Notes under the pieces: generated by a model
The model's input: only the letters and a program-made list of their open reading frames with translations
Database searches by the model: none
What the model was told of the DNA's origin: nothing
Made by a program: the position numbers and the translations under genes
DNA from: Deltaproteobacteria bacterium
GTDB lineage: Bacteria > Desulfobacterota > Binatia > UTPRO1
Assembly (NCBI GenBank): GCA_029262315.1
Contig: JAJCZP010000279.1
Span: forward strand, 1-39,452
Direction: 5' to 3'
Length of the DNA stretch: 39,452 nucleotides
Part shown: positions 5,988-26,451 of the stretch, piece by piece
Layout of the letters: the number at the start of each line of letters is the position of its first letter
Position numbering within the stretch: the stretch's first letter is position 1

Positions 5988-6028
5988 GGGGGCTAACTAT
6001 CCGAGGGCGACGGCGATCTGCAACATCG

Positions 6029-18458: not shown

Positions 18459-19274
18459 CTATTTCACCGCGAAGATCTGAAGACTCGTCAGCGTGTCGGC
18501 GTAGCCGCGCGCCTCTTCGCGCGAAATGCCCATGCCTGTCATCGCCTCGCGAATCGTCGGGTCGTCGAAATCGATTGCGTCCACGAAACTCGCCGCGTGA
18601 TCGACACGCACCTCCGCGAAACCGGCACGGGCGATCGTGGCCAGATACTCGGACCGCAGGCTCGCCCCTCCGATGCAGCCGATATAGGCGTCGAGACTCT
18701 CCAGTACCCCTGGAGGCAACGGGCGCTCGAGAACGATGTCCGAGACCATCAGACGACCGCCCGGACGAAGCACGCGATACGCCTCACCGTACACCCGATC
18801 CTTCTCGGGCGAGAGATTGATCACGCAGTTGGAGATGATCACGTCGACGCTGGCATCGTCGATCGGCAACGCCTCGATGTTCCCCTTTCGGAACTCGACA
18901 TTCTCGATGCCGGCGTTGCGTGCGTTCTCGGTGGCCTTGGCAAGCATCGCATCGGTCATATCGATACCGATGACTCTCCCGCTTGGACCGACCTGACGCG
19001 CCGCCAGGAACGCATCCATGCCCGCCCCCGAACCGAGATCGACCACAACCTCCCCCGGCCGCAGGGCGTCGATCGCCGTTGGGTTGCCACACCCGACTCC
19101 TAGATTCGCCTCGTCTGGCACCGCCGCGAGCTGCTCCTCGCTGTAACCGATACGCCGCCCGGTCTCGCGCACGCGCTCCGCGTCCGCCGCACTTCTGCCC
19201 TCGACGATACGGCTATACCCCTCGCGGACGGCCTCTCGCAGTTCGTCCGCGGACCCGGATCTCGGCGTGCTCAT
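18459..19274 (-). CDS. arsM: Arsenite S-adenosylmethionine methyltransferase (ArsM-type)
   Basis: Predicted to methylate trivalent arsenic from SAM. The product is 271 residues from the ATG at 19274-19272; the upstream in-frame extension overlaps arsI and is rejected. The SAM-binding motif I is [15 protein letters not shown]. The three cysteines that bind As(III) in characterised ArsM enzymes are present as Cys62 (GVGCGNPT), Cys150 ([14 protein letters not shown]) and Cys200 (YIGCIGGAS). The start codon overlaps the arsI stop in an ATGA, so the two are translationally coupled. It is last in the arsR-controlled cluster and converges on the thiolase. Methylarsenite produced here would be a substrate for the neighbouring ArsI. 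Confidence 0.93.
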
Positions 19275-19690
19275 GAGGGTTTCGCCTCGAGCTCCACCGT
19301 CGCGTCCCGGCCAAACGTCTCCGAGTCCTGCAGAATCCGATACCACTCCCAGCGCATCCCCTGCGGATCTCGAGTCCAGACCTTGTTCATCGTCGCGTAG
19401 CAGCACGTCGCTTCGGTCTCCTCCGGGCCGACGATCCCCTCGTGCTTGAATCGCATCGCCGCAGCGGTGACGTCGGCTTGCTCGAAACACTCGACCCCGA
19501 GATGGTTCAAGCGCTCCGATGCACCCGGGGCCTCAAAGAGCACGAGCTTCAGCGGCGGGTCTTCGATCGCGAAATTGGCGTAGCCGGGCTTACGTTTGTT
19601 CGGAGTCGTCGCGAACAGTTTCGAGTAATAGTCGATGGCGTCTTCCAGGTTCTCGACGTTCAGTGCCAGCTGCAATCGATTCGTCCTCAT
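19271..19690 (-). CDS. arsI: ArsI/CadI-family VOC metalloenzyme (C-As lyase type)
   Basis: Vicinal-oxygen-chelate dioxygenase of 139 residues in the ArsI/CadI family; ArsI members use Fe(II) and O2 to split the C-As bond of trivalent organoarsenicals. The start ATG at 19690 has AAGGAG 7 bp upstream. The vicinal substrate-binding pair Cys96-Cys97 in EATCCYAT is present at the positions known for ArsI. Candidate metal ligands are Gln7 (RLQLALNV), His63 (LNHLGVE) and Glu115 (WEWY). Gln in the first position is as in CadI. The gene lies 44 bp after the TauD-type dioxygenase and overlaps arsM by 4 bp. A role in heavy-metal (Cd) resistance is the main alternative. Confidence 0.92.
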
Positions 19691-19734: not shown

Positions 19735-20787
19735 CTATGCCTTCGAGGTATCCGCCGCGGCGATCGCCGCCGCGTCCGACACCACACCTTGCTTCTTCGG
19801 AATCCCCTGCTGCACGAACGCGTCGCCGTCGGCCCACTCGCCATGCGCGGTCAGCCACAGCCGCACCATATGGCGCTTGCGGGCGGGCTCCTCGAAATCC
19901 TCGTACGCCGCCCGCGCGTGCAACGCCGTACTGTTCTTGAGGTAGGCGATCTCGCCCGGCTCGAGCATGAACTCGAGATAGTGCGCGGGATCGCCGGCGA
20001 TCGCGTCGATCAAGTCGAGCAACTCGTGCTGTTCCGGTGTGAGGCGCGGCACCTGCCCGTGACGCTGGGCGCCCCGGATGTACCACCCGATGTAGAAGAA
20101 CCGGAGCTGCCCGTCGACGTCGAAGCAGATCGGCAGCGTGAAGTACGGATCTTCGCCGGGGCCCTGCTCCTCGTTCCGATCCCAGTACCAGGGCTCGTAC
20201 AAGAGCGGCGTGAGATCGGGTCGGCGCCGCACGATCTCATTGTAGAGCGTGCCGCAACTCACCATCCGACTTGCCCCCCCGCGCTTGGCGGGGCGAATGC
20301 ACATGAGCGCGATGATGTCGGCCCCGTCGCTGTGATAGTCGAGCCCTACCCTTGTTCTGTACAGCCGCACCGACGGGTCGTCGGGATCCGCGCCTGTATC
20401 ACGCACATGCCCAAGGAGATCGCCGGCGGCGTTCTGCGACACGGCCGTGCCCATGTGGAGGCCGATTCCCCACTGCATGAGCGCGAGGTCTGCTTCGTCG
20501 AACCGATCGACCGGGAGACCCCTGACATTCACGAAGCCGCGGCCGCGCTGCAGGATCTCCATCCACCGCGCGATGCTGGTCGCCAGCGCCGGGAGCGGGA
20601 AGTCGTCCCGCTCCAAGGCGAGCATGGCCTTGCCCGTCGCCTTCGCATGCGTCAATGCCGACTCGAGATCGGCGACCTCGCGGCTGGTCAGGCGGTGCTG
20701 CCAGTCGGCGCACCCCGCAACCTCGGGCCCCGTCCAGACGGCCGGCCCATCGATCGGCGTACAGTGCATCGCCTTCCCCGTCTCCAT
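19735..20787 (-). CDS. TauD/TfdA-type 2-oxoglutarate-dependent dioxygenase in an arsenic cluster
   Basis: Predicted Fe(II)/2-oxoglutarate dioxygenase of 350 residues. The facial triad is visible as His152-x-Asp154 in GLDYHSDGAD and His290 in STALHARAAYED, with Arg309 (RHMVRLWL) the likely 2-oxoglutarate carboxylate ligand. Known relatives hydroxylate the carbon next to sulfonate, ether or phosphonate groups, triggering bond cleavage. The gene is first in a unit with arsI (44 bp) and arsM and has its own promoter with an operator matching that of arsR. A substrate containing arsenic, such as a methylated arsenical or arsenosugar, is therefore plausible but not shown. The start ATG sits in a 12-bp inverted repeat; an internal Met7 is an alternative. 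Confidence 0.88.
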   Translation of the reverse strand: METGKAMHCTPIDGPAVWTGPEVAGCADWQHRLTSREVADLESALTHAKATGKAMLALERDDFPLPALATSIARWMEILQRGRGFVNVRGLPVDRFDEADLALMQWGIGLHMGTAVSQNAAGDLLGHVRDTGADPDDPSVRLYRTRVGLDYHSDGADIIALMCIRPAKRGGASRMVSCGTLYNEIVRRRPDLTPLLYEPWYWDRNEEQGPGEDPYFTLPICFDVDGQLRFFYIGWYIRGAQRHGQVPRLTPEQHELLDLIDAIAGDPAHYLEFMLEPGEIAYLKNSTALHARAAYEDFEEPARKRHMVRLWLTAHGEWADGDAFVQQGIPKKQGVVSDAAAIAAADTSKA

Positions 20788-20823
20788 AGTTCGAGAGTAC
20801 TGGAACTATGGAGAGGTTGTCAA
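20781..20823 (-). promoter_or_regulatory. Promoter and ArsR-type operator of the dioxygenase-arsI-arsM unit
   Basis: On the minus strand TTGACA (20823-20818) is a consensus -35 box. About 17 bp further, the expected -10 region (GTACTC, 20800-20795) lies inside the dyad TTCGAG-AGTA-CTGGAA (20790-20805). A longer perfect inverted repeat with 12-bp arms (20781-20792 and 20803-20814, 10-bp spacer) surrounds it and includes the ATG. Only 7 bases separate the -10 from the ATG, so the transcript may be leaderless. A repressor bound here would block RNA polymerase directly. Confidence 0.7.
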
Positions 20824-20871
20824 GTGGGTCGCAGAAAAACCGTGGCGTGCGGGGGACGGACCAGACCGATC

Positions 20872-21201
20872 TCAGGAGGCCTTGCGCGTTGCGGTACGGC
20901 GGGGCGTCGACACCGCGACCCCCTGGCAACAGCTCTCGGTCAGAAACGAGAGCAGGCCCTGCATGGCATCGAAATTGGGTCCGTAGATGAGCGAGCGCCC
21001 GTCACGCCGGCAGGTGACGATCCCCGCGTTCTTGAGCTCTTTCAAATGAAACGACAGCGTCGCGGGCGGTACCCCGAGCGTTTTCCCGATCTGCCCGGCA
21101 GGCAGACCCGCCACACCCGCCCGGACGAGCAAACGGAAGATATCGAGCCGGGCCTCCTGCGCGAGCGCACTCAGCGTCCGGATGGCAACCTGCTTCTTCA
21201 T
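20872..21201 (-). CDS. arsR: ArsR/SmtB-family metalloregulator
   Basis: Winged-helix repressor of 109 residues, expected to leave DNA on binding As(III). The helix-turn-helix is QIGKTLGVPPATLSFHLKEL (about residues 37-56) and the wing is CRRDGRSLIYG. Candidate arsenic ligands are the adjacent Cys91-Cys92 in TESCCQG, plus Cys64. This resembles ArsR proteins that carry their thiols in the C-terminal dimerisation helix rather than in the DNA-recognition helix. Its promoter holds a dyad matching the one in front of the dioxygenase gene 84 bp downstream, so autoregulation and control of that unit are inferred. No ACR3, ArsB or ArsC gene is found nearby. Confidence 0.94.
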   Translation of the reverse strand: MKKQVAIRTLSALAQEARLDIFRLLVRAGVAGLPAGQIGKTLGVPPATLSFHLKELKNAGIVTCRRDGRSLIYGPNFDAMQGLLSFLTESCCQGVAVSTPRRTATRKAS

Positions 21202-21203
21202 AT

Positions 21204-21235
21204 TTCCAGTTTACTCGAAACGTCTGCAGGGTCAA
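21204..21235 (-). promoter_or_regulatory. Autoregulatory promoter/operator of arsR
   Basis: Minus strand: TTGACC (21235-21230) as -35, a 16-bp spacer, then TAAACT (21213-21208) as -10. The dyad TTCGAG-TAAA-CTGGAA (plus-strand 21204-21219) covers the -10. Over 21 bases including the start codon it agrees at 17 positions with the site before the dioxygenase gene. Six bases separate the -10 from the ATG, so a leaderless or nearly leaderless arsR transcript is predicted. Confidence 0.68.
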
Positions 21236-21248
21236 GCTGCCACGACCG

Positions 21249-22370
21249 CTATCGGCCACCCGTCGCGCGCTCGAACATTGCGGTCTCGACCTCGGCCGCG
21301 GGCGCGAACGGCCGATTGAGCGTCGGCTGAGGAGGCTCCTCGAACGTGGGCACGGCGCTCGCCTGCGCGGCGTAGTTCGCGAAGTACTCGCGCACCCCGG
21401 CACGTGCAAGCACGTCGTCGAGCGCGTCACTGGGTGCATCCTGATACCGTGCGAGGAGCACACTACGCGCCTCTTTCAAGAACGCTGGCGCGACAATCGT
21501 CACGCGGTCGCCGCGCGCGAACGTCAGCTCGGCCTCGCCCGCAACCGTCGCCCGGCTGACCCACGGAAGGTAGAGTCGACCCATGTCGCGGAGCACTGCG
21601 ATCAAGGTGTCGGGCACGTCTCCGGGCGTGGCCCACGCGCCCGGCGCGAGATCCTCGGGATGCAGCAGTCGATGGGTGTGTTGCACGACCGCCGGGCCGT
21701 GTTCGTCGAGCCACCCTCGGCACACGGGGTCGTTGATGAAGTGTGCCGCATCGGCACCGAAGAGCGCGAAGTCGGCGAGGCACGGTCGCATGCCGAAGAG
21801 AAACGGTGTGGCCTCGAAGTGCGCGTTCAGCACCCGGACCCATGGGAGCAGCACCTCGTCGATCCACGCCTGAATGTTCTCTTGCGTAGCCCCGAAGGCT
21901 GCACAGCTCGCGGTCACGTAGTCGGCCACCATCGTGGCGACCTCGTGACACGGCAGCGGCGTCTCGTAGCTGACCTCGCGACCGATTTCCCACGAACCGT
22001 GCTCGCGATTCTGTGGGAAGAACCAGCGCGAGCCGACGGCGGGTCGATAGAACCACTCGTCGACGACATCCTCGATCGCGAAGCAGAGGAACCGCTGTAC
22101 GGGGTCGCTGGGAAGGATCGACGGCTCGGGCACACGTGTCTCAAGGTGGAGCATCATCGCGGTCGTGTCCCACATGTAGCCACCGTCAGGCGTCTGGACG
22201 ACGGGCATGCCGCCCGGCCACCCGGCGGCACGAGCCTCGGGATGCCCACCGCCGAAACGCCGGAAAAGATACGGGATCCGCTTGTACTCGAAGTAGGCCT
22301 GAATCTTCCGCGTGAAGTACGACGGGGTCACGCCATACAAGCGATAGGGCTGATCGGCTGAATTGACCAT
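21249..22370 (-). CDS. Glutathione S-transferase-like protein, extended
   Basis: This 373-residue protein has an N-terminal thioredoxin-fold GST domain (YRLYGVTPSYFTRKIQAYFE, then GGMPVVQTPDGGYMWDT with the cis-Pro and following acidic/Thr residues that bind glutathione) and a helical C-terminal domain (FLFGMRPCLADFALFGADA). Beyond about residue 240 there is a further segment not found in ordinary 200-220-residue GSTs. The start ATG has GGGAGG about 4 bp upstream. It lies 47 bp upstream of arsR on the same strand, but arsR has its own promoter in that gap, so co-regulation is uncertain. It could act in detoxification or as a glutathione lyase; no substrate can be named. Confidence 0.85.
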   Translation of the reverse strand: MVNSADQPYRLYGVTPSYFTRKIQAYFEYKRIPYLFRRFGGGHPEARAAGWPGGMPVVQTPDGGYMWDTTAMMLHLETRVPEPSILPSDPVQRFLCFAIEDVVDEWFYRPAVGSRWFFPQNREHGSWEIGREVSYETPLPCHEVATMVADYVTASCAAFGATQENIQAWIDEVLLPWVRVLNAHFEATPFLFGMRPCLADFALFGADAAHFINDPVCRGWLDEHGPAVVQHTHRLLHPEDLAPGAWATPGDVPDTLIAVLRDMGRLYLPWVSRATVAGEAELTFARGDRVTIVAPAFLKEARSVLLARYQDAPSDALDDVLARAGVREYFANYAAQASAVPTFEEPPQPTLNRPFAPAAEVETAMFERATGGR

Positions 22371-22473: not shown

Positions 22474-24090
22474 CTACGCGACCTTGCGCTCGCCGGTTGC
22501 CGGCGGCGCTTGCTCCGAGGTGGAGCCAGCGAGCGCACCGATCACCTCATAGGCCGCGCCGTATCCCGGAAGGAAGGTCACACCAGGGCCCGGGTGGCAC
22601 GCCGCCCCGCAGAGATACAAACCGGCGATCGGCGTTGCATGCGCAGAGCCCTCGATCGTAGCGCGCCCACCGATCATCTGCTCCGGATGAATCAGGCCGT
22701 GGGTGAAGTCACCGTTGGTCGCGCCCTGCATTGCGGCGAAGTGGTCCGAGGAGAACACGGCCTGGTCGACAATGAGGTCGCGAAACCCGGGCAGGTGCTC
22801 CTCGATGCGGGCGATGACGCGCGCGGCCATCGCATCTCGAAGGCGGCCGCGATCTTCGCGCGGCGCGGCACAGGGGAAGTAGAAGCCGTAGCTCGTGCCG
22901 ATGTGGAATCCAGGTGGCGCCAGATCCGGATCGAGCACGGTCGGAATCTGCAAGCTGATGGGCGCGTACTCCGGCACTTCGCCACGCGCACATGCCTCGA
23001 ACCCGGCCTGCACCTGCTCGGGATCGGGCACGAGCGCCGTGATGAAACGCGTGCGGGGATCGCGATTGAGATGCGCCCAGGGCGCGGCGAACTGGGGCAA
23101 CGCGCGCAACTTGAAGAGCACGTGCATGTACGCGCCCCGATGCTCGACGGCGCGCACGGCGGTCGCGTACTCCGACGTCAGGTGCTGCTCACCCACCAAC
23201 CCGAAGAACGTCGCCGGCTTGTCGAGGTTCGAAAGCACGGCCCGTGCCGACAGGAACTCGCCGTTCTTCAGCTCGACGCCGGTGGCGACGCCGTCGGTCA
23301 CGATGATCTGCCGCACGGGGGCCTTCAGCCGCACCTCGCCGCCGTGCGCCTCGATCGAGCGCGCCAGCGCCTCCGACAACGAGCCCATGCCGCCCTTCAC
23401 CCGCCGCATCAACCCACCACCGTCGTTCACCGCCAGGGTGTAGACGAGGCAGAGCGCGCTCCCCGGCGTGTACGGGCCCTTGTACGTCGACTGGATCGCC
23501 ACGAACGCCAGCATCGCCCGCAGCGTGCGGTGCTTCTGCTTGTCGGGAAGGAAGCGATCGATCAGATCCATCGCGCTTCCGGTAAAGGCGAGTTCGAGCT
23601 GCGCACGCGCGGTCGCGCTCGGGGCCTCCGCGAGCAACCGCTCGAGCGAGCGCGGCGTGCTTCGCGGCGTGAAGCGATCCATCACGCTCGCCGGATATTG
23701 GCAGAAGCGCATCAAGCCGACGAAGCCCCACATGGCGCGTGGCCCGAAGCTTCTGAGGATGTGCGCCGCCAGCCGCACCGGATTTCGGTAGAATACCAAA
23801 GGCGACGCATCCGCGGCGCTCAGGTTCACTGACATCACCGGCAGGTCGATGAACTCGGCCCCGTAGCGTTCGAACTCCAGCTCGTCCACGAGATCCTTCG
23901 CAAGCGGAAAGAGCAGGCTGGCACCGACGTCGTTGCGACAGCCCGAGAGGATCTCGCGGCTCCCCGCCATCCCGCCCACGTAGTCGTTCTTCTCGACGGC
24001 AAGCACCCGAAGACCGTGCCGTGCGAGGACCGCCGCGGCCGCCATGCCATTGTGGCCGGCGCCGACGACAATCGCGTCGTAGTCAGGCAT
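22474..24090 (-). CDS. FAD-dependent oxidoreductase, phytoene desaturase-like
   Basis: Flavin-dependent oxidoreductase of the phytoene dehydrogenase/CrtI-like superfamily, 538 residues. The ATG at 24090 is chosen because MPDYDAIVVGAGHNGMAAAA begins directly with the dinucleotide-binding motif (GAGHNG) near the N-terminus. The NDYVGGMAGSREI segment follows. The C-terminal FAD-binding motif is GLYLCGAACHPGPGVTFLPGYGA. Most proteins of this type in non-pigmented bacteria have no known substrate and resemble pyridine nucleotide-disulfide oxidoreductase domain protein 2. There are no carotenoid genes nearby, so a carotenoid role is not supported. It is divergent from the ABM-domain gene. Confidence 0.9.
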   Translation of the reverse strand: MPDYDAIVVGAGHNGMAAAAVLARHGLRVLAVEKNDYVGGMAGSREILSGCRNDVGASLLFPLAKDLVDELEFERYGAEFIDLPVMSVNLSAADASPLVFYRNPVRLAAHILRSFGPRAMWGFVGLMRFCQYPASVMDRFTPRSTPRSLERLLAEAPSATARAQLELAFTGSAMDLIDRFLPDKQKHRTLRAMLAFVAIQSTYKGPYTPGSALCLVYTLAVNDGGGLMRRVKGGMGSLSEALARSIEAHGGEVRLKAPVRQIIVTDGVATGVELKNGEFLSARAVLSNLDKPATFFGLVGEQHLTSEYATAVRAVEHRGAYMHVLFKLRALPQFAAPWAHLNRDPRTRFITALVPDPEQVQAGFEACARGEVPEYAPISLQIPTVLDPDLAPPGFHIGTSYGFYFPCAAPREDRGRLRDAMAARVIARIEEHLPGFRDLIVDQAVFSSDHFAAMQGATNGDFTHGLIHPEQMIGGRATIEGSAHATPIAGLYLCGAACHPGPGVTFLPGYGAAYEVIGALAGSTSEQAPPATGERKVA

Positions 24091-24206
24091 TCGCAGAGCT
24101 TCCCACAGGTGCCCCCTGAGAAACAACTGGGCCGGCGTCGCTCGTTTGAGATGACACCGCGCGGACGGTAGTCTCGCCCTCCATTTCAGCCAGGAGAGGA
24201 ATCATC

Positions 24207-24567: not shown

Positions 24568-26451
24568 ATGCATCGCCCCGTCTGGCTCCTGAGCATGGAT
24601 ACCGAGCAGTTTCGGGCCCCTCCGATGACGACGGGGGGCCTGAAGGCGTACTTTGGCGCCTACGGCACGACCACGCGGGCAACTGATGTCGAACTGGTCC
24701 ACTTCCTTGCGGCCGCTGAGGCCACGGCATGGCTCGATGGTGAGTGCGAGACAAAGCTCCTGCCACAAGCGCAAGCCGCGGCTGCGGCCGGCGTGCAACC
24801 CGTAATTGGGCTCAGCTGTTACACCTGGAACGTTGCTGAATTCCTCGCCATCGCACGCCATATCAAGACGCGCGTCCCGGAGGTCCTGATCGTCGCCGGG
24901 GGACCCCACGTGCAACGGGCAGAGGACTTCCTCTTCGACGAGTCCGTGGATGTCGTCGTGCTCGGCGAGGGTGAGGAAACCCTGGCCGCCATCCTCGATC
25001 TCCCTCCCCAGGCCTCGCTCCGCGCGGTCACGGGCTGCGCCTTCGTCGAAGAGGGCACGCTCGTCGACACGGGCGTCCGTCCGCGGACGACGGACCTCGA
25101 TCATTTGCCGTCCGCGCTCGATGTCATCCCACTCCGAAACGACGATGGCACACCGCGCTACCGCCAGATCTCCTACGAGACCAGTCGCGGCTGCCCGTAC
25201 CGCTGCGCGTTCTGCGAATGGGGCACCGGGGCGATCGGCACGAAGATGTACCAATTCTCGCTGGAGCGATTTCAGCGCGACCTCGAACGGATCGCAGCCG
25301 GCGGCATCCGCGACATCTGGCTTGCCGACTCCAACTTCGGCGCCCTCCGCGAGGACGAAGCCAAAGCCGCCATGGTCGTCGAGCTCCGCGACAAGACCGG
25401 GCTGCCGCACACGCTCGCGACCTCGTGGTCGAAGAACCACAATCAGCGCGTGCAGCGAATCGTCCGCTCGCTGCATCAGCATGGCCTGCTGTCGCACTAT
25501 CATCTGGCGCTGCAAACCCTGACACCGCGTGCGCTGGAACTCAGCCACCGGACGAACATGCGCGCCAACGACTACCAGCCCATCGTCAAGTCGCTAGCCG
25601 AAGACGGCATTCCGGTCGCCGCCGAGCTCATCTGGGGCCTCCCAGGCGATACGCTTGCCGAGTTCGAACACAATCTGGACCACCTGCTGACGATCTTCCC
25701 CAACATCAACATCTTCGGGTACACACTCCTGCCCGGAACCGAGTTCTTCTCCCGCCGTGACGAGTATCGCCTCGAGACGCTCCCCGTCGCTGGCTACGGC
25801 AAAGCGAAGGGCGAGTACGTCGTCGGCTGTCACACCTTCACCCGCGCCGAAGGCGAGGAAGGGTACTTCCTCTTGGCCGCGTACATCGTGTTGGCGCGCG
25901 GCCAACTGATGCCGTTCACGACCCGCCACCTGGCATTTCTAGGCATCGCCTCGGTGGCCGGGCTCCTCCGCGAAGTGCTGCACGCGCTGCTGGTGACGTA
26001 CGCACACACGACCGACCGGATGCACGTCTACGAGAACCGCGCCGCGCTGTATGTTCAACTACTCCGCGATCGGGAGCGTACCTACGCCGCGATCAAGACC
26101 GTGGTCGGCGATTGGCTGGAACGCCACGACGCGGCTGCACTCGCGGACGACACGCTCCGCGTTCTGGCTCTCGACGAGGCGCTGTGTCCTCGGCCGGGCT
26201 CGTCGCACACGATCCGCCAGTCGTTCGACTTCGCCGCGGACCAGGTTGCGGGAACCCTCGGACGGATGGACCGGCCCCCAACGACTCTGCTGGCCGAAAC
26301 CACCGCTGGGGTCGAACTCCAGATCGAGCATCCCGCCGGCGTCGGCGATCTGATGCTCGACCCTGACGGCGGCGAGTGGGTTCGCGGCCGCATCCTCGAC
26401 CCAACCGTGTCGGACGGGCAGCCCGACGACATGCTCGCCTCCAACGCGTAG
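24568..26451 (+). CDS. B12-binding-domain radical SAM protein
   Basis: Radical SAM enzyme of 627 residues with an N-terminal cobalamin-binding-type Rossmann domain (about residues 40-150; GLSCYTWNVAEFLAIARHI, VAGGPHV, VVVLGEGEETL). The cluster motif is in ETSRGCPYRCAFCEWG, with Cys209, Cys213 and Cys216 binding the [4Fe-4S] cluster. The barrel continues through SHYHLALQTLTPRALE and IWGLPGDTLAEFEHN. The roughly 200-residue C-terminal part is specific to a subgroup I cannot name. Enzymes with this domain order are usually methyltransferases or ring-forming enzymes in lipid, cofactor or natural-product synthesis. No precursor peptide or biosynthetic cluster adjoins, apart from the small ABM protein just upstream. 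Confidence 0.9.
   Translation: MHRPVWLLSMDTEQFRAPPMTTGGLKAYFGAYGTTTRATDVELVHFLAAAEATAWLDGECETKLLPQAQAAAAAGVQPVIGLSCYTWNVAEFLAIARHIKTRVPEVLIVAGGPHVQRAEDFLFDESVDVVVLGEGEETLAAILDLPPQASLRAVTGCAFVEEGTLVDTGVRPRTTDLDHLPSALDVIPLRNDDGTPRYRQISYETSRGCPYRCAFCEWGTGAIGTKMYQFSLERFQRDLERIAAGGIRDIWLADSNFGALREDEAKAAMVVELRDKTGLPHTLATSWSKNHNQRVQRIVRSLHQHGLLSHYHLALQTLTPRALELSHRTNMRANDYQPIVKSLAEDGIPVAAELIWGLPGDTLAEFEHNLDHLLTIFPNINIFGYTLLPGTEFFSRRDEYRLETLPVAGYGKAKGEYVVGCHTFTRAEGEEGYFLLAAYIVLARGQLMPFTTRHLAFLGIASVAGLLREVLHALLVTYAHTTDRMHVYENRAALYVQLLRDRERTYAAIKTVVGDWLERHDAAALADDTLRVLALDEALCPRPGSSHTIRQSFDFAADQVAGTLGRMDRPPTTLLAETTAGVELQIEHPAGVGDLMLDPDGGEWVRGRILDPTVSDGQPDDMLASNA

Follow-up and report, generated by a model that had tools for sequence, protein, structure and literature searches.

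The two inverted repeats on either side of arsR in the window, the whole 39,452-nucleotide stretch of DNA that was analysed, are with high probability operators of the ArsR repressor encoded between them. In the mechanism proposed from sequence comparison, an ArsR dimer would bind ATANTTCNA-N6-TNGAANTAT, which has the -10 hexamer and the start point of each promoter at its centre, and block RNA polymerase. The site before arsR would serve autoregulation, and the site before the dioxygenase gene, the stronger of the two, would control the dioxygenase-arsI-arsM transcription unit. A trivalent arsenical bound to Cys91-Cys92 would release ArsR from the DNA. The sites, their conservation, placement and uniqueness in the genome, the gene order, and the Cys pattern were computed, and we infer binding, repression, the inducer, and the relative operator strength.

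The core of the dioxygenase site, at 20790-20805, is TTCGAGAGTACTGGAA, and the core of the arsR site, at 21204-21219, is TTCCAGTTTACTCGAA. The two dyads are 414 bp apart. They had been located at these positions by an earlier sequence-only reading, and the sequence bears this out: they are the only exact matches in the window to TTCNAGN4CTNGAA (TTCNAGNNNNCTNGAA). The reported agreement between the sites at 17 of 21 bases is correct (TTCGAGTAAACTGGAAATATG and TTCGAGAGTACTGGAACTATG). The loose pattern, TTCNAGNNNNCTNGAA with up to 2 mismatches, is not enriched in the window (4 matches, about 9 expected). The core that had been drawn at the dioxygenase site is present, but it understates the dyad, which extends over 32 bp from 20782 to 20813 as CTCCATAGTTC-GAGAGTACTG-GAACTATGGAG with perfect 11-bp arms. 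The arsR-site dyad stops 2 bp short of the arsR ATG; its right arm is intact, and its left outer arm is degenerate (ACG for ATA). The features are collected in Table 1.

Table 1. Positions of the candidate operators, promoter elements, and genes in the window.
Feature	Position	Strand	Description and basis
Operator 1 (candidate)	21196..21227	-	Dyad over the arsR promoter, core 21204-21219; sequence, matrix, orthologue position
Operator 2 (candidate)	20782..20813	-	32-bp dyad CTCCATAGTTC-N10-GAACTATGGAG, dioxygenase-arsI-arsM promoter; sequence, matrix, genome profile
-35 box of arsR, TTGACC	21230..21235	-	Sequence and orthologous promoters
-10 hexamer of arsR, TAAACT	21208..21213	-	Mid-dyad, 4/6 match, spacer 16; orthologous promoter alignment
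-35 box of the dioxygenase promoter, TTGACA	20818..20823	-	Sequence
-10-like hexamer of the dioxygenase promoter, TACTCT	20794..20799	-	Mid-dyad, 3/6 match, spacer 18; position homologous to the arsR-family -10
arsR	20872..21201	-	109-residue winged-helix repressor; Cys91-Cys92 pair, Ser98 in place of AfArsR Cys102
TauD/TfdA-type Fe(II)/2-oxoglutarate dioxygenase	19735..20787	-	PF02668 115 bits; FrbJ E 2e-44
arsI	19271..19690	-	VOC C-As lyase family, vicinal Cys96-Cys97; NF041414 175 bits, cut-off 116
arsM	18459..19271	-	Arsenite methyltransferase; NF008823 309.7 bits, cut-off 263

Conservation of the dyad was examined in about 100 ArsR orthologues that are 51-71% identical and come from Binatota, Alphaproteobacteria, Nitrospirales, Methylophilaceae, and other groups (the 98 nearest genomes gave 29 loci, and species genomes of various phyla gave 80). 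A 32-position matrix was iterated on the orthologous upstream regions with the window excluded and was then symmetrised. The site was found in 90 of the 95 usable upstream regions, counts that come from kin and are not independent trials, and in 77 of the 90 sites exactly 2 bp separate the 16-bp core from the arsR ATG. The sequence-only reading had staked its operator in advance on conservation of the dyad before orthologous genes, and that conservation was found. The consensus in the orthologues is ATATTTCCAT-N4-ATGGAAATATGG, usually with a TTGAC -35 box in front. The consensus TTCNAG-N4-CTNGAA offered earlier over-fits the two window sites and gives way to the orthologue pattern ATANTTCNA-N6-TNGAANTAT, which the dioxygenase site matches with 0 mismatches and the arsR site with 2, in the left outer arm. 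The outer ATA/TAT arms, absent from the earlier core, are strongly conserved in the orthologues. Core position 6 is G in the window (C at position 11), and the orthologues have T there in 78% and G in 1%. By this comparison, the AG/CT at core positions 5-6 and 11-12 is no family rule, and the source genome is peculiar in having G/C at positions 6 and 11.

In the window, the matrix gave its highest score, 30.8 bits, to the dyad at 20782-20813 and its second highest, 21.6 bits, to the one at 21196-21227. No other independent place scored above 2.9 bits, and the best of 100 dinucleotide shuffles scored 6.5. Start codon or promoter bias was considered as the source of this signal. When the matrix was rebuilt by mirroring its non-coding left half alone, both window sites still came first, at 17.3 bits each with the next independent place at 4.9, which shows that the signal was not created by the start codon. 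The collected loci, 1.25 Mb in all, contain 114 matches above 13 bits, of which 95 are immediately upstream of arsR; among the remaining 19, several are near an ars gene. The single offset of the orthologous sites and the two window scores support the candidate operator that had been proposed to link dioxygenase-arsI-arsM to ArsR. Tighter repression of the dioxygenase unit than of arsR is predicted from the sites.

ArsR belongs to the ArsR/SmtB winged-helix family (PF12840 45.6 bits, cut-off 27; NF033788 60 bits, cut-off 55). Its nearest solved structure is AfArsR from Acidithiobacillus ferrooxidans (PDB 6j05, E 1e-19; Cys95-Cys96-Cys102), with which it shares the winged helix and the C-terminal LTE-CC motif. 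Cys91-Cys92 aligns with Cys95-Cys96 of AfArsR, whereas Cys102 is replaced by Ser98. The tail, CCQGVAVSTPRRTATRKAS, has no Cys after the pair; the third Cys of the AfArsR type, 6-7 residues on, is absent, and the protein has the two-Cys pattern of the SpArsR type. SpArsR from Shewanella putrefaciens 200 is AfArsR-like, has the Cys pair without the third Cys, and answers MAs(III) and ignores As(III) (PMC11868830, PMC13236881). The two proteins are likened by Cys pattern, and they differ in that the window ArsR is predicted to control a dioxygenase, arsI, and arsM. Because Ser replaces the third As(III) ligand of AfArsR, MAs(III), which ArsM produces and ArsI uses as its substrate, would be the likeliest inducer, ahead of inorganic arsenite. 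We consider it reasonably probable that the two-Cys ArsR senses MAs(III) only.

The operators may instead be real and respond to inorganic As(III), or to both arsenicals, as in an ordinary arsenite-responsive ars operon. This is possible but rather unlikely. Most orthologues with the dyad have the third Cys, are AfArsR-like, and are presumably As(III) sensors, and As(III) is the substrate of arsM, which makes its use as an inducer sensible. ArsR also has a lone Cys64 outside the Cys91-Cys92 pair, and this residue or another ligand could still permit As(III) sensing. Against these points stand the Ser at the position of AfArsR Cys102, the lack of any Cys past the pair, and the indifference to As(III) of SpArsR, which has the same pattern (PMC11868830). 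The near third Cys is absent from 10 of 17 distinct ArsR tails beside window-type ArsI, ArsM, or dioxygenase genes compared to 2 of 64 others (Fisher 6e-7), an association confounded by descent and a loose class boundary. Genes of the ArsI/CadI family also adjoin three-Cys ArsRs, and genome G078, with the same genes as the window, retains the third Cys.

The dyads had been described as lying over the -10 region behind -35 boxes. Both -35 boxes are in place; the hexamers within the dyads are weak, and TACTCT of the dioxygenase promoter, weak by itself, was missed by the search that detected TAAACT of arsR. The -35 element matches TTGACA at at least 5 of 6 positions in 56 of 82 orthologous arsR promoters, and the spacer from it to the mid-dyad hexamer is most commonly 17 bp and 16-18 bp in most. 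The location of the dyad between a TTGACA-like box and the start codon in the orthologues identifies a promoter with a palindrome over its -10 region and start point. A -10 element in the CATAAT register (matrix positions 12-17) fits TATAAT slightly better (mean 4.05 compared to 3.49 of 6), but it was rejected for its 14-bp spacer. The predicted start point of arsR is the A of its ATG, which would make the mRNA leaderless, and that of the dioxygenase unit is predicted at about 20787. In the arsR promoters of ~80 orthologues, for example in locus L077 just before position 6001, the start codon ATGG belongs to the operator's right outer arm. The operator and the predicted leaderless start are thereby fused in one sequence. 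An intrinsic terminator at the dyads was also considered and rejected; none was called there, and no T-run follows them.

A role in RNA was weighed against the operator reading. If transcription read through from arsR or the upstream gene, a hairpin in the RNA would hide the dioxygenase start region and control translation or processing, and the DNA symmetry would be a by-product. As RNA, the dioxygenase dyad has a folding energy of -23.5 kcal/mol (z -2.75), and arsR and the dioxygenase gene are co-directional and 84 bp apart, so read-through is possible. However, the orthologous dyads cover the -10 region upstream of the predicted start point and would therefore not be transcribed there, the window's arsR site forms a weaker hairpin (-16.9 kcal/mol, z -2.08), and the lack of a T-run argues against a terminator in the RNA. 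The RNA role is very improbable.

The 5.92 Mb genome has 8 exact matches to TTCNAGN4CTNGAA. Two of these are the window dyads, and the other 6 are in unrelated locations with no ars gene recognised beside any of them. Run against the 5.9 Mb genome, a profile built from 38 diverse orthologous sites hit the window dyads (E 0.07 and 0.59) and nothing else up to E 10; the E-values are modest because the site is short. The relaxed pattern ATANTTCNAN6TNGAANTAT with 2 mismatches found the window pair and one other place, and the reversed control found 0. The third place is in the arsR2-acr3 promoter and scores 6.1 bits compared to 30.8 and 21.6 bits for the window dyads, so it is probably no site. 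A wider regulon in the source genome was rejected since the relaxed pattern adds this one place only. The exact-match counts, the matrix compared to shuffles, and the genome-wide profile rule out a chance origin of the dyads. Binding of both sites by some other dimeric ArsR/SmtB-family repressor, with its gene elsewhere in the genome, is very improbable: the source genome has several other ArsR/SmtB-type helix-turn-helix proteins and the relaxed copy sits in a separate ars promoter, but the dyad accompanies this group of ArsR orthologues at a constant offset in different phyla, the copy scores far below the window sites, and ArsR2 is of another type.

The genes predicted to be under the dioxygenase-site operator were assigned by family scores and catalytic residues. 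ArsM scores above its curated cut-off, and ArsI scores above its cut-off and has the vicinal Cys pair of the C-As lyases. The dioxygenase has the TauD/TfdA triad H152, D154, and H290 (HSD 152-154) and an RHMVRLW segment with the C-terminal Arg, and its homologues agree. Its nearest solved relatives are FrbJ (PDB 5eqn, E 2e-44) and the predicted hydroxylase 7n7v (E 6e-40), and the iron-binding triad is common to all. FrbJ is a hydroxylase of the phosphonate antibiotic FR-900098, and we know of no tie between it and arsenic. The true dioxygenase start is probably Met7, the ATG at 20769-20767 behind GGGGAAGG, because the N-termini of the homologues begin near there. With this start, the ATG within the dyad would be merely the TATGG arm of the operator.

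Relatives of the dioxygenase that are ~55-65% identical are found in the arsR-arsI clusters of four genomes (G078, G043, G063, and G023) and beside arsR in G069. The ars-linked relatives group together in the dioxygenase tree, with G060 as an unlinked exception and weak support for the branch that unites two ars-linked groups. In a Candidatus Binataceae locus (L130:844-2637), a relative is divergent from arsR-arsI. A more distant relative in G054 (L156:5744-9101) is in an ars cluster with an ArsI/CadI gene, an aquaporin, and another ArsR type that has CC near its N-terminus, which indicates that the arsenic link of the dioxygenase is not confined to one regulator. Plasmid-borne homologues are 35-43% identical and are mostly from Streptomyces and Proteobacteria. 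At least six other genomes also have the dioxygenase in arsenic clusters, and this repeated company makes it, by genomic association, a candidate new ars gene. A search of open-licence literature turned up no ars operon reported to contain a TauD-type gene. More speculatively, and with low confidence, the dioxygenase could be a 2-oxoglutarate-dependent oxygenase of carbon bound to As (in a methylated or natural arsonate or arsinate) that acts in an organoarsenical pathway alongside ArsI and ArsM, under a methylarsenite-sensing ArsR. To our knowledge, no such pathway has been described in this lineage, probably Binatota; the class of the source genome seems to be Binatota from the labels of its relatives. 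Look-alike small proteins with no Pfam or NCBIfam match are encoded near the dioxygenase gene in G078 (L149:7225-7791) and adjoining it in G008 (L155:5647-6186), and they are a possible further member of the pathway.

The two-operator layout is paralleled in some genomes and not in all. Three genomes of one related genus, G043, G063, and G023, carry a second site downstream of arsR, in front of arsI or arsM (17.8, 27.7, and 36.2 bits), but none was found between arsR and the dioxygenase gene in G078, where the order is arsR-dioxygenase-arsI. G069 has a weak site of 7.1 bits before its dioxygenase gene.

No efflux pump is encoded inside the arsR-dioxygenase-arsI-arsM group. An acr3 gene lies on another contig of the source genome (G000:C252:139-1783, L172) behind its own ArsR of the other type, with a CxC near the DNA-binding helix. 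This arrangement suggests a division of labour in which the acr3 operon handles inorganic arsenite and the dioxygenase-arsI-arsM group handles methylated arsenic. A further contig (G000:C181:1-5220, L173) is AT-rich and carries an arsC-like gene, acr3, and a transposase pair; it is unlike the rest of the genome and is probably assembly contamination. Directly upstream of arsR on the same strand, the window encodes a GST-N-domain protein (21249-22370) and a CrtO/CrtI-like FAD enzyme (22474-24126), and no operator-like site precedes either gene. A B12-binding radical SAM protein of the KedN5 C-methyltransferase kind, scoring under the curated cut-off, is encoded at 24568-26451.

The window dyads were compared to footprinted ArsR operators. 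No footprinted AfArsR operator was found in the literature searched. The footprinted operator of the Synechocystis ArsR is ATCAA-N6-TTGAT (quoted in PMC4585019), and the footprinted ArArsR operator, TTTTATCGTAATATTGCGATCACAATC, lies over the -35 region (PMC11868830). Like the window dyads, both are AT-rich, are located in an ars promoter, and block transcription, which is predicted for the window. Their half-sites differ from those of the window, and ArArsR covers the -35 region, whereas the window dyads centre on the -10 region. The dyad motif was not found in the open-licence literature searched. Judged from these alignments, the operator pair is ordinary in kind, well conserved, and useful as a general motif. 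The two-Cys ArsR and its operators are a potential methylarsenite-selective reporter part. The dyads provide a candidate operator for the Cys-Cys ArsR class that can be read genome-wide in several phyla from its fixed place before the start codon. They also link an uncharacterised dioxygenase to an arsenic sensor, and the search for its substrate can target methylated arsenicals.
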